In this document: in pieces, positions 48,144 to 51,550 of the stretch | Layout: every line of letters starts with the position of its first letter | Position numbering within the stretch: position 1 is the first letter of the stretch | Assembly (NCBI RefSeq): GCF_001021385.1 | Contig: NZ_CP011773.1 | Coordinates: 186,001 to 250,000 of the forward strand | DNA: 64,000 nucleotides | Direction of reading: 5' to 3' | Source of the DNA: Mycobacterium sp. EPa45 | GTDB lineage: Bacteria > Actinomycetota > Actinomycetes > Mycobacteriales > Mycobacteriaceae | Position numbers and translations under genes: made by a program | The notes under the pieces: generated by a model | What the model saw: only the letters and a program-made list of their open reading frames with translations | Told to the model about the DNA's origin: nothing | Database searches by the model: none

Positions 48144-48210
48144 TTTCTCCTCCTCAGGTCAGTCACAAACGTACGCCGCGGGTCCGCGGCGCAGGCCTAG
48201 AGTGGGCAAT

Positions 48211-48666
48211 ATGTCTCCCAAGTTCGCCACCGCCGACTCCGTCGACCTCGACCGGCTGTTGGAGTTCGTCCGTCCCCGGCACCGCATGGTGCTGACCACC
48301 TTCCGCGCCGATGGCTCCCTGCAGAGTTCTCCCGTAACCGGCGGAGTCGATGAGCAGGGCCGGCTGGTGATCGCCAGCTATCCGCAGCGGGCCAAGGCGG
48401 TGAACGTCCGCCGGACCGGGCGCGCCAGCGTGGTGGTGCTCTCCGACGAGTTCAATGACGCCTACGTCCAGGTCGACGGGCCAGCCGAAGTGATCGACCT
48501 GCCCGAGGCCGTCGAGCCGCTGGTTGACTACTTCCGCGCGGTGGCCGGCGAGCACTCCGACTGGGCCGAGTATCGGGAGGCGATGGTGAAGCAGGGCAAG
48601 TGCCTGATCCGGGTCACTCCGCAGCGCTGGGGTCCGGTGGCGACGGGCGGCTTCCCGCCGTCGTGA
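48211..48666 (+). CDS. PPOX-class F420-dependent enzyme (Rv1155-like)
   Basis: A 151-residue split-barrel protein. The N-terminal sheet has RHRMVLTTFRADGSLQSSPVTGGVDEQGRLVIASYPQRAKAVNVRRTGRASVVVLSDEF (about residues 24-82), typical of the pyridoxamine-phosphate-oxidase-like F420-binding group. It likely uses F420 or a flavin for an unknown reduction. Its last 53 bases overlap the convergent sucrase/ferredoxin-like gene, and both frames look genuinely coding there. Confidence 0.82.
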   Translation: MSPKFATADSVDLDRLLEFVRPRHRMVLTTFRADGSLQSSPVTGGVDEQGRLVIASYPQRAKAVNVRRTGRASVVVLSDEFNDAYVQVDGPAEVIDLPEAVEPLVDYFRAVAGEHSDWAEYREAMVKQGKCLIRVTPQRWGPVATGGFPPS

Positions 48667-49537
48667 GCGACGCCAGCGTGTAAACCCGCACCCGGCCCGG
48701 CACTTTGGCGTGGCATTGCGACAGCAGCGGCTCGGAGAGCTCCTCGTTCAGTACGACCTCGACGGGCTCTGGATCGGCGCCCAGCACCACGCGGGTGATG
48801 CCATCGCCCGACTCGACGCTCAGCGGCGGGAACGCATCGATGCGGTCGTCGCCGGTGGCTTCGCGGGCGAAATGCTGCGCGGCCTGGACGGCGTGGGGCA
48901 GTGACGTGCGGCCGCGCAGGAATCGGTCGTCCAGCCGGCCATCCAGGGCGCGCGCCACGAGCGCGGCCGCATCGGTGCCGTCCACCCGTCCGTAGCACAA
49001 GCCGACAGGCAGTACGAGCATCGTCGCCGCGAACCGGTCACCGCCCAGATGTGAACACTCCCAGGCGAATTCGGGGTAGGCGGCCGATATCTCGGCCGCG
49101 GCCGAGCGACCCCGCACCGCGCAACACATGTCGTGACGGCCGTGTGCGCAGACCGCTACCAGCGGATCCGACAAGGCGGCACCGTCGGAGCCGTCCAGCG
49201 CGAGGTCGAGGTACCCGCGCGGGCCGTCGACCTCGCCGGCGTACAACGCCTCACTGCCGACGGCGCACTGCGCGACGAACCAGCGCCACCGCGGGGTGGC
49301 CGCACGGCGGCCGTGCTTGCGGATCGCCGCAATCCGCATCCCCGCCGCCTCGGCACGCCGCACGACGGCCAGCCCGAGCTTCGGATCGATGGATGCCGGC
49401 GACTCCAGAAACGCCGAAGACCCCCAACCGCCGGACAATTCGAGCAGCAGCCACGATGTGCCTGCCGACGCCGTGCCGTACATCGGGTCGTTGCGGGCCA
49501 GCGACTGGTCGCTGCAGCCGTCGCCGGATCTGCTCAT
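48614..49537 (-). CDS. sucrase/ferredoxin-like [2Fe-2S] protein
   Basis: A 307-residue protein of the Suc_Fer-like family, a thioredoxin-like ferredoxin fold related to yeast Apd1. Cluster-ligand candidates lie in VCAHGRHDMCCAVRG (about residues 129-143) and WECSHLGGDRFAATMLVLPVG (about 159-179), with Cys and His residues at the expected places. It probably carries electrons. Its start overlaps the stop of the JmjC oxygenase gene by four bases (ATGA), so it may supply electrons to that locus (inference). Confidence 0.82.
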   Translation of the reverse strand: MSRSGDGCSDQSLARNDPMYGTASAGTSWLLLELSGGWGSSAFLESPASIDPKLGLAVVRRAEAAGMRIAAIRKHGRRAATPRWRWFVAQCAVGSEALYAGEVDGPRGYLDLALDGSDGAALSDPLVAVCAHGRHDMCCAVRGRSAAAEISAAYPEFAWECSHLGGDRFAATMLVLPVGLCYGRVDGTDAAALVARALDGRLDDRFLRGRTSLPHAVQAAQHFAREATGDDRIDAFPPLSVESGDGITRVVLGADPEPVEVVLNEELSEPLLSQCHAKVPGRVRVYTLASLTTAGSRPSPPDPSAAE

Positions 49538-50739
49538 CGCAGCTGCACGGGGACGACGACCGCTTCCCTGAGCAGCCGCCGGATCAGCACTGCGCCGTCG
49601 GCAGCGTCGAGGCCGGGCAGGGCGGCCGACCGCAGCACGTCACCGCGGTGCAGTGCGTGCACGGCCTCGGCGCAGGATGCGGGGAAGGTGATGGTCCGGT
49701 CGGGTAGCCGCAGCACCACCCGGTCTGCAGTCCGTTCCAGGGTGCTCACGAGCCCGTGCCGCCAGCGCACCTCGATCTCAGCCTCCTCGGCGGCGAGGGT
49801 GGCCAGCGGGCGGACCGCGACAGGCCGGGTCTGCGAGGCATAGCGTTTGGACAATCGCGTAGCCGCCCCGGAGCCCAGTGTTGCGGCGTTGTCGCGCAAG
49901 GCCGCCACGACCTCGGCCATCACCTTGTTCACCGTCGCCACGGCCTCGTCCTGGTCTGTCGGCGTGCGGCCCATCGGGAGGGATTGGCGAAAGGCCTCGA
50001 TGCTCGACAACTCGTCGAGCACCGCGCGGGCGACGTCCAGACCGGTGGTCGCCGAGACTCCGACAGTCAGATGAATCGACGTCGTATCGAGAGCCTCGGC
50101 GGCGTGCAGCCAGCCCCGCGGCAGATAAAGCGCGTCACCTGCAGTCAGCACGGTGTCGATCACCGGCGCGCCGCGCACCCGGTCGGCGATCGCCGCCCGG
50201 TGCTCGGTCCACGGCTGAGACGGCAGGGGATGGTGATGCACCGGCTCGTGCACCACCCAGCGCTTCTGCCCGGACACCTGCAGAACGAAGACGTCGTGCA
50301 CGTCGTAGTGCGGCTCGAAACCGCGGTTGCCCGGTGGCGTGATGTAGGCATTGGCCTGCACCGGGTGTCCGATGTCGTCGACGGCATGGCGGACGAACTC
50401 GATCAGTGGGGGCCACAGGCGGTGTAGCCCCTGCAGAACAACCGTTGCGCCCGAGCTCAATTCGGCGAGCACCTTCGCCGAGTCGACCTGATCGGTGATC
50501 TCGGCGCCGAATCCGGCCGGCCCCAGATAGCAGTCCTTGGCCAGGATCTCGCCGTCGCGGGCCAGCCTGACGAAGGGTGCGCGAACGCCGCGCTCGGCGA
50601 TCAGCTCGTCGACTGCCCCGGGAGACAGCAGGTCGCTGAAGTCCCGGGGCAGGTCGACGGACTTGCTGAGTAGCGGCTTACGGCCCCAGTACTCGTCGGC
50701 GAACGTCTGTGCGTCGACCGCACTGCAGCGGCTCAGCAT
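49534..50739 (-). CDS. JmjC/cupin-4 2-oxoglutarate oxygenase (ROX-like)
   Basis: A 401-residue protein of the cupin_4/JmjC family, related to ribosomal oxygenases. The Fe(II) facial triad is visible: His144-x-Asp146 in GFEPHYDVHDVF and His212 in LYLPRGWLHAAEAL. A dimerisation and winged-helix-like region follows (230-401). ROX enzymes hydroxylate His or Arg in protein substrates using Fe(II) and 2-oxoglutarate. ATG 50739 starts seven bases after the stop of a repeat-rich peptide gene and lacks its own ribosome site, implying coupling. The longer frame merely reads the peptide repeats out of frame. Confidence 0.87.
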   Translation of the reverse strand: MLSRCSAVDAQTFADEYWGRKPLLSKSVDLPRDFSDLLSPGAVDELIAERGVRAPFVRLARDGEILAKDCYLGPAGFGAEITDQVDSAKVLAELSSGATVVLQGLHRLWPPLIEFVRHAVDDIGHPVQANAYITPPGNRGFEPHYDVHDVFVLQVSGQKRWVVHEPVHHHPLPSQPWTEHRAAIADRVRGAPVIDTVLTAGDALYLPRGWLHAAEALDTTSIHLTVGVSATTGLDVARAVLDELSSIEAFRQSLPMGRTPTDQDEAVATVNKVMAEVVAALRDNAATLGSGAATRLSKRYASQTRPVAVRPLATLAAEEAEIEVRWRHGLVSTLERTADRVVLRLPDRTITFPASCAEAVHALHRGDVLRSAALPGLDAADGAVLIRRLLREAVVVPVQLR

Positions 50740-50746
50740 GAAGAGG

Positions 50747-50932
50747 TCAGGCGGTTCCGTCGGCTCCGCCGTCGTGGCCTTCGGGGTTGGCGCCGCCGTC
50801 AGCGGTGCCTTCGCCGGCACCATCCGCGGTTCCGTCGGCACCGCCGTCGTGGCCTTCGGGGTTGGAGCCGCCGTCAGCGGTGCCTTCACCGCCGGGGGTG
50901 GAGGTGGTCATGTCGTCATCGTCGAGCGCCAT
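50747..50932 (-). CDS. repeat-containing 61-aa peptide, candidate modified-peptide precursor
   Basis: A 61-residue peptide starting MALDDDDMTTSTPG. The rest is two near-identical 25-residue units (GEGTADGGxNPEGHDGGADG then TADGA; the second copy is cut at 22). It is rich in Gly, Asp, Ala and Thr, has two His (one per repeat), and has no Cys, Lys or Arg. The ribosome site GAAAGGA stands 6-7 bases before the ATG. It sits just upstream of a JmjC oxygenase and opposite a C39-like peptidase, which suggests a ribosomally made precursor whose repeats are the modification sites. Alternatively it is a secreted or structural peptide. I do not recognise the family. Confidence 0.7.
   Translation of the reverse strand: MALDDDDMTTSTPGGEGTADGGSNPEGHDGGADGTADGAGEGTADGGANPEGHDGGADGTA
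50753..50891. repeat. 75-bp-period tandem direct repeat in the peptide gene
   Basis: Bases 50753-50816 and 50828-50891 match at 61 of 64 positions with a 75-bp offset. The three differences are consistent with slow drift after duplication. The period is a multiple of three and keeps the peptide frame. It is not a CRISPR array: only two units are present and the repeats are coding. Confidence 0.85.
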
Positions 50933-51031
50933 GTCGATCCTTTCTCACACGCGCACAAGCGCGGCACACTGTGCAGGGATTGGTTGATTGGGAGTTACCG
51001 CACCGACCGAGAACGAAACAGGGCAGAGCAG

Positions 51032-51550
51032 ATGGATGTGTCCGGCTGGCCGCGCCAGCGCGACGGCGTGAGCTGCGGGCCGAGTGTCGCGGTGATGGCG
51101 GGCGCACTGCTCGATGCCGACTACGGCGCCGCTTTGCGGGCCGAGCAGCCGCAATCGTGGTTCGACGCTGAACAGGCTCGGGTGCACCGCGCGGTCAACG
51201 TGGTGTGGCCGCATGCCCTGGGCACCACCCCCGCCGGAGTGGCACGGGCGATGACCGCGCACAGCGCCGCCCGGGGGGTGCGCTACCGGTGGCGGCCGGC
51301 GCGGTGCGGGGACCGATTGGCCGACGTCTGCGACGCGGTGGGCGCGGGGTGGCCGGTAGCGATGCTGATCGGTGCGGGGCTGCCGCGGCATTGGGTGCTG
51401 CTGGTCGACATCGACGGCGCCACCCTGCGCTGCTACGAGCCGTCATCCGGGGCGCTGCTGGACGTCGCGATCGGCGACGTCCGGCACGGCCGGTTGACGC
51501 GCCTGGGATTTCCGCGCGCGTTCGCGTTCGTGACGCCGCACTGTGTTTGA
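51032..51550 (+). CDS. C39-like cysteine peptidase family protein
   Basis: A 172-residue papain-like fold protein. The probable nucleophile Cys15 is in RQRDGVSCGPSVAVMAGALL, the GxxCGPxxxxM pattern of C39-like peptidases. His120 is in LPRHWVLLVDIDGATLRCYEPSSG. At the expected acidic position it has Glu-Pro (YEPSSG) where relatives have Asp-Pro. There is no signal peptide or ABC domain. It is divergent from the repeat peptide gene with starts 99 bp apart, so it may process that peptide (inference). The frame is open far upstream, but those codons are antisense to the oxygenase. Confidence 0.75.
   Translation: MDVSGWPRQRDGVSCGPSVAVMAGALLDADYGAALRAEQPQSWFDAEQARVHRAVNVVWPHALGTTPAGVARAMTAHSAARGVRYRWRPARCGDRLADVCDAVGAGWPVAMLIGAGLPRHWVLLVDIDGATLRCYEPSSGALLDVAIGDVRHGRLTRLGFPRAFAFVTPHCV

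Follow-up and report, generated by a model that had tools for sequence, protein, structure and literature searches.

The window analysed here is a stretch of 64,000 nucleotides from Mycobacterium sp. EPa45 (NCBI RefSeq assembly GCF_001021385.1, contig NZ_CP011773.1, positions 186,001 to 250,000), a genome of 6.18 Mb in a single contig. It contains a cassette in which a short gene for an Asp-rich repeat peptide precedes the genes of a JmjC oxygenase and of a sucrase/ferredoxin-like (Suc_Fer) protein. One JmjC match and one PF06999 match were found in the whole genome, both inside the cassette. An earlier note had described this layout, and its coordinates, the repeat peptide, the 7-nt gap between the peptide and JmjC genes, the 4-nt overlap of the JmjC and Suc_Fer genes and the divergent open reading frame (ORF) 99 nt from the peptide start all hold. 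The sequence GAGAAAGGATCGAC, which resembles a ribosome-binding site, directly precedes the peptide ATG. The features are as follows.

50747..50932, minus strand: gene of the Asp-repeat, precursor-like peptide (ATG at 50932, TGA ending at 50747, 61 aa).
50888..50932, minus strand: N-terminal acidic segment of the peptide, MALDDDDMTTSTPGG; putative recognition or leader region.
49534..50739, minus strand: JmjC_2 (PF08007) 2-oxoglutarate/Fe(II) oxygenase (ATG at 50739, gene end at 49534; 401 aa; HYD...H triad intact; NO66-like fold over the whole length).
48614..49537, minus strand: Suc_Fer-like (PF06999) protein of the thioredoxin-like ferredoxin family (CX8C present; HX3D instead of HX3H).
50994..51019, minus strand: candidate SigF-like promoter, GTTTCGTTCTCGGTCGGTGCGGTAAC, upstream of the peptide gene; the pattern is shared with upstream regions in the genus.
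51032..51550, plus strand: C39-like small protein, papain-like by appearance; divergent neighbour judged to lie outside the cassette.

The window peptide consists of the N-terminal segment MALDDDDMTT followed by two GEGTADGG[SA]NPEGHDGGADGTA units, which are identical at 62 of 66 bases. It is extremely acidic, with 15 Asp+Glu residues, no Lys or Arg and an isoelectric point of 4.05. Comparison of 40 mycobacterial peptides, 24 with three units and 16 with two, gave 104 repeat units. Glu2, Ala5, Asp6, Asn10, Asp15, Ala18, Asp19 and the Gly positions are the same in all of them, with variation in the codons, and a ratio of nonsynonymous to synonymous substitution rates (dN/dS) of 0.057 was obtained for the repeats of these 40 loci. 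Purifying selection on the encoded protein is strong. Neither the window peptide nor any other member of a set of ten peptides of different types matched Pfam or NCBIfam, and RTX calcium-binding repeats in particular gave no Pfam match in the window peptide or nine relatives. As the JmjC frame is open across the peptide gene, a read-through JmjC protein starting at GTG 50889 was also considered. It was rejected, since the peptide frame is under purifying selection and the frame relation of the two genes varies between loci (gap modulo 3 distributed 19/17/2 among 38), so that a longer, fused JmjC is not conserved.

The pairing of peptide and oxygenase was followed in several samples. The genus sample comprises 118 genomes, with a JmjC match in 62 and an orthologue (E ≤ 3e-168) in 42; the peptide gene lies just upstream of the JmjC gene, on the same strand, at all 42 orthologue loci, and 40 of these peptides pass a fixed composition criterion, the repeats being interrupted by a frame break or by Ns in L007 and L021. 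With this position and the dN/dS value, the peptide can be regarded as real, as had been proposed. In a class-wide sample of 296 genomes, a JmjC profile match was present in 85 (E ≤ 1e-40), and 63 class loci (L233-L295) were taken, 50 scoring at least 240 bits and 13 lower (set C, 163-218 bits; other low or partial matches, such as G654 and G683, stayed outside this set). An Asp-rich peptide stands ahead of JmjC at 50 of the 50 higher-scoring loci, whereas the peptide criterion fired for 7 of 256 other genes used as a control; three of those seven are themselves cassette JmjC genes, which leaves 4/253. Homologous loci without a peptide, which the earlier note had named as evidence against its proposal, were thus looked for, and the attempt at refutation failed at these 42 genus and 50 class loci.

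Starting from the peptide gave the same picture. A scan with one genome per species yielded 189 loci encoding peptide relatives, and the best 80, hereafter the named loci, were read; they belong to Mycobacterium/Mycolicibacterium, Gordonia, Williamsia, Dietzia, Rhodococcus, Rhodococcoides, Subtercola, Amnibacterium and Paractinoplanes. Among these best 80 of 189, JmjC follows the peptide in every case and the next commonest neighbour family after the cassette genes reaches 11/80. A search of 81 genomes of the taxonomic order found Suc_Fer genes adjoining JmjC (39-52% identity, a few at 34%) and, through them, additional peptides whose repeats differ: EGPADGGASGTPGVHDGGADGGADGG arrays, ADGG arrays, GDADQSDSAGDADQGDSG and GDSDSGDSDEVQVDPAGSDPAG. 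Plasmids contributed 127 records with JmjC, all under 60% identity and 73 of them from Streptomyces; in the two regions read, a peptide of the type ...DGGGTGRSDGND (S. virginiae) or ...ADNDPSDPPIAIADPDPFDPVI (S. clavuligerus) stands ahead of JmjC. Because the locus sets overlap in species (L007 and L043, for example, look like one genome), locus counts are not independent events.

Suc_Fer is the third, usual member, again as proposed. All 42 genus orthologue loci have it directly behind JmjC; of the 50 class loci, 39 have it on the same strand (38 of them directly behind JmjC), and it is present in 73 of the 80 named loci. The cassette unit is the peptide, the JmjC protein and usually Suc_Fer. 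The window Suc_Fer protein matches PF06999 (E 4.4e-15) and has the CX8C pair, C130 and C139 being invariant. It shares this domain and CX8C with the thioredoxin-like ferredoxins Apd1 and Aim32. These have an HX3H motif (PMC8482512), at which 114/115 cassette proteins differ, with Asp (HX3D, 113) or Glu (HX3E, 1) in place of the second His ligand of the cluster. In the order search, HX3H occurs in 0/20 readable JmjC-adjacent Suc_Fer proteins (window included) versus 6/10 stand-alone ones. Four further loci (L162, L163, L178 and L183, the last at a contig end) encode an HX3D Suc_Fer with no JmjC in the stretch read; either the ligand change predates the pairing or JmjC was lost there.

The JmjC protein matches Pfam JmjC_2 (PF08007, E 1.3e-28) and has the HxD...H triad and the ROX domain architecture; its nearest structures are NO66 and MINA53. 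With NO66, MINA53 and YcfD it shares the whole-length fold and the Fe-ligand triad. These three act on ribosomal proteins, at His or Arg according to PDB entry titles, and none of them is known to have a repeat-peptide gene next to its own. The cassette enzyme would be a dedicated modifying enzyme for the adjoining peptide.

Across actinomycetes the strongly variable Asp/Gly/Ala(/Ser/Thr) repeats take different forms (GHDGGADG, ADGG arrays, DGDATD, DADADST) with little in common beyond Asp among small residues. The acidic segment ahead of them recurs: the pattern [LI]x(0,1)[DE][DES][DE][IM]x(0,1)[TS] was found N-terminally in 29 of the 50 class peptides, compared with 0.02 (maximum 1) in shuffles, and also with DADTTDGG, DADADST or DGDATD cores. 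Changing cores behind a recurrent N-terminal segment look as they do in leader/core precursors. A quick-method tree of 106 JmjC proteins, in which several long branches were flagged, needs 13 changes of peptide type; shuffling gave 50.1, and none of 200 shuffles came as low. An enzyme and its substrate family would be expected to show such a pattern.

The target residue was approached by counting in the last 60 residues of 197 peptides, 5 of 202 loci having failed the peptide criterion (L007, L021 and L043 with interrupted repeats; L191 and L219 at contig ends). His is absent from 25 peptides, Asn from 61, Arg from 175 and Lys from 178; Asp is absent from none, a zero partly built in because the criterion by which peptides are picked itself asks for Asp. 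All four of the other residues are absent from 15 peptides, 11 of which are among the 50 class loci, and some His-less cores have a His nearer the N-terminus (e.g. L193). Since Asp is common to the peptide subtypes and each other candidate is missing in some, Asp beta-hydroxylation is the leading inference. Of the suggestion that the modified residue is His, Asn or Asp, the first two are thus unlikely as a general target and Asp stays as the most likely one. That the peptide is the oxygenase substrate is probable, given the pairing at 42/42 and 50/50 loci; His or Asn as the general site and a part for the C39-like gene, attached to the same proposal, were not supported.

The pattern GTTT-N16-20-G[GC]?G[TC]AA[CT] lies 32-99 nt upstream of the peptide ATG at 29 of 41 genus loci, compared with 0.06 (maximum 2) in Markov shuffles; it occurs in 22/79 of the named set and 7/45 of a wider set. 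The M. smegmatis SigF consensus is GTTT-N14-19-GGGTA (PMC4694148), from which the -10 part in the window, cGGTAAC, deviates. The upstream regions suggest that in mycobacteria the operon is probably under SigF (general stress) control. For an IdeR (iron) box upstream of the peptide, the histogram of best matches was no better than in shuffles.

Taken together, the comparisons favour, with some margin for doubt, a cassette similar to those of ribosomally synthesised and post-translationally modified peptides (RiPPs), in which JmjC would bind the repeat peptide and hydroxylate its repeats, most likely at Asp. Binding by this enzyme of NO66/MINA53/YcfD architecture would probably go through the N-terminal L-x-DDD-[IM]-T segment, and the repeats would be hydroxylated one after another, most likely at the Asp beta carbon. 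Suc_Fer is probably either a redox partner that keeps the oxygenase iron reduced or the enzyme of a second modifying step. In mycobacteria the operon would probably be SigF-controlled, and the acidic peptide, once hydroxylated, most likely remains intracellular, since the main family is accompanied by neither a peptidase nor an exporter. The cassette points to an undescribed kind of peptide modification.

Several observations weigh against this reading. The distant JmjC matches of the genus (24 matches at 29-37% identity in 20 genomes, of which 20 were examined upstream, leaving G036, G038 and the second copies in L133 and L140) have a peptide in 0/20 and Suc_Fer in 0/20; the presence of a JmjC_2 protein is therefore not in itself a sign of a peptide. 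Two of the 50 class loci (L268, L269) have acidic ORFs that are hardly repetitive, and the N-terminal acidic motif is missing in 21 of the 50 class peptides. Suc_Fer is not found beside JmjC in 11 of the 50 class loci (in L275, besides, it has an odd, overlapping place) and in 7 of the 80 named ones, and G391 and G317 have peptide and JmjC with zero PF06999 matches; Suc_Fer therefore cannot be indispensable in every cassette. In the 80 named loci the main cassette has no conserved peptidase or exporter beside it, an unlinked enzyme being possible. Finally, mycobacterial units retain His in 103/104, so that His cannot be dismissed there, and NO66 and MINA53, the nearest structures, are histidyl hydroxylases.

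An extension of Asp hydroxylation, which we consider doubtful, is that the L-x-DDD-[IM]-T leader lets one JmjC make a poly-beta-hydroxyaspartate, iron-binding peptide serving as metal buffer or stress protectant, the metal being reduced or released by partners of the [2Fe-2S] type (the HX3D form of Suc_Fer in the main family, FhuF_C in a sister clade); this would be a widespread, undescribed actinomycete class. The last two points against general Asp hydroxylation lead to a rival that we hold to be unlikely, namely that the oxygenase acts at His (or Asn) of NPxGHDGG and that His-less subtypes use another residue. Asn is kept in 104/104 mycobacterial units, and hydroxylation of this kind would resemble the action of NO66 and MINA53 on ribosomal proteins. 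Beside the same enzyme family, however, His and Asn are lacking from the 25 and 61 peptides counted above, and the peptide relatives P0001, P0092 and P0114 carry R, Q or K at the His position.

Two other readings have a slim chance, about equal for both. JmjC, with or without Suc_Fer, might desaturate, cross-link or cyclise the repeats into a constrained RiPP: macrocyclisation of RiPPs by 2-oxoglutarate oxygenases is reportedly possible (Xia 2025), a second redox-type protein is usually present in the cassette, and a JmjC clade with lower scores is accompanied by an S9 peptidase and an FhuF_C protein. The Fe ligands and fold are nevertheless those of protein hydroxylases, and Gly/Ala/Asp repeats would offer few cross-link partners. 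Alternatively the peptide could be a partner instead of a substrate: a small acidic protein with a metal-binding or regulatory function, from which JmjC and Suc_Fer would receive iron while acting on another target. Its extreme acidity and the occurrence of such peptides beside two unrelated [2Fe-2S]-type families agree with this, but arrays of variable length, a changing core and a recurrent N-terminal segment are expected of a substrate, and the IdeR box shows no enrichment upstream. That JmjC is a ribosomal-protein hydroxylase of the YcfD/NO66 kind, whose fold family it shares, and the small ORF a chance or leader ORF, is hardly credible given the pairing of 42/42 and 50/50 against 4/253 in controls, the dN/dS of 0.057 and an orthologue in only 42/118 genus genomes, unlike a core ribosome function.

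The C39-like protein has no Pfam or NCBIfam match, so its label rests on appearance only. Its gene adjoins the cassette in 5/42 genus and 4/80 named loci and is absent in the close relative L002; it is a neighbour in one local group, and its proposed membership of the cassette was dropped. The model of C39-type cleavage after Gly-Gly with export was rejected with it; since neither a peptidase nor an exporter consistently accompanies the main cassette in the 80 named loci, nothing here supports either step.

JmjC enzymes acting on ribosomal precursors (PMC12707348, PMC12257519) or standing in RiPP-like contexts (PMC12710340) are already known. In biphenomycin-type RiPPs the JmjC/cupin hydroxylases BipG and PbsQ (BpmG predicted) act on the precursor of their own cluster (PMC12707348, PMC12257519), and like them the cassette enzyme is encoded together with a ribosomal precursor. 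There the target is Orn derived from Arg in an FHAFRF-type motif, in a cluster with an MNIO, a B12-rSAM enzyme, a peptidase and a transporter; the cassette, in contrast, has a lone JmjC facing Asp/Gly/Ala repeats. A 2025 survey found the closest bacterial homologues of eukaryotic PF08007 JmjC proteins fused to RRE-like domains in RiPP-like contexts; the passage on them names no bacterial precursor, and its main text is without the words sucrase and Mycobacter (PMC12710340).

Literature searches, including searches with repeat strings, returned no paper on the cassette, although Iyer et al. 2010 (NAR) may contain an earlier prediction; that article reportedly predicted JmjC-type modification of bacterial peptide metabolites. 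Nor did the searches turn up a paper on the families of peptides, their leader motif, the ligand change in Suc_Fer or the promoter, points that were not each searched individually. Of the 296 sampled class genomes, 52 have a JmjC of this family at 252 bits or more. If the peptide is hydroxylated as proposed, two or three genes would make up a minimal RiPP-like system whose natural substrates have diversified; such a system would be useful for learning how NO66-type oxygenases choose their targets, and would suggest that modified small acidic proteins have a role in the stress biology of actinobacteria.

Among the 13 lower-scoring class loci, six pass the peptide script and ten have a peptide by eye, GGDSDGTDSSSDFI-like in seven and ...SDGND/SDTND in three; L277, L282 and L293 have no such peptide by eye. 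At L278, L279, L284 and L289-L292, conserved short peptides of MDPIEVEVEDLAEVTSRDVTAGGDSDGTDSSSDFI type lie between an S9 prolyl oligopeptidase and JmjC, with an FhuF_C-type [2Fe-2S] protein behind in 5 of these 7, an arrangement that resembles a more complete RiPP cluster belonging to a sister clade of JmjC. At L282, JmjC adjoins YcaO- and TfuA-like genes (by eye), possibly a thioamide-type cluster that also uses JmjC. In the large-genome family f88, L196, L198 and L213 encode a near-identical 43-aa peptide ending in AAADNDGNDG, 12 nt before a distant JmjC and with Suc_Fer behind. At L272 (G804), the JmjC of a mycobacterial cassette seems split by a frame break into two overlapping pieces, beside an intact peptide and Suc_Fer gene. 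In the window, a TIGR03618-type F420-dependent PPOX gene (48208-48666) and the Suc_Fer gene are convergent, with a 53-nt overlap at the 3' end of the latter; the occurrence of the PPOX gene tracks the local group of relatives, not the cassette.

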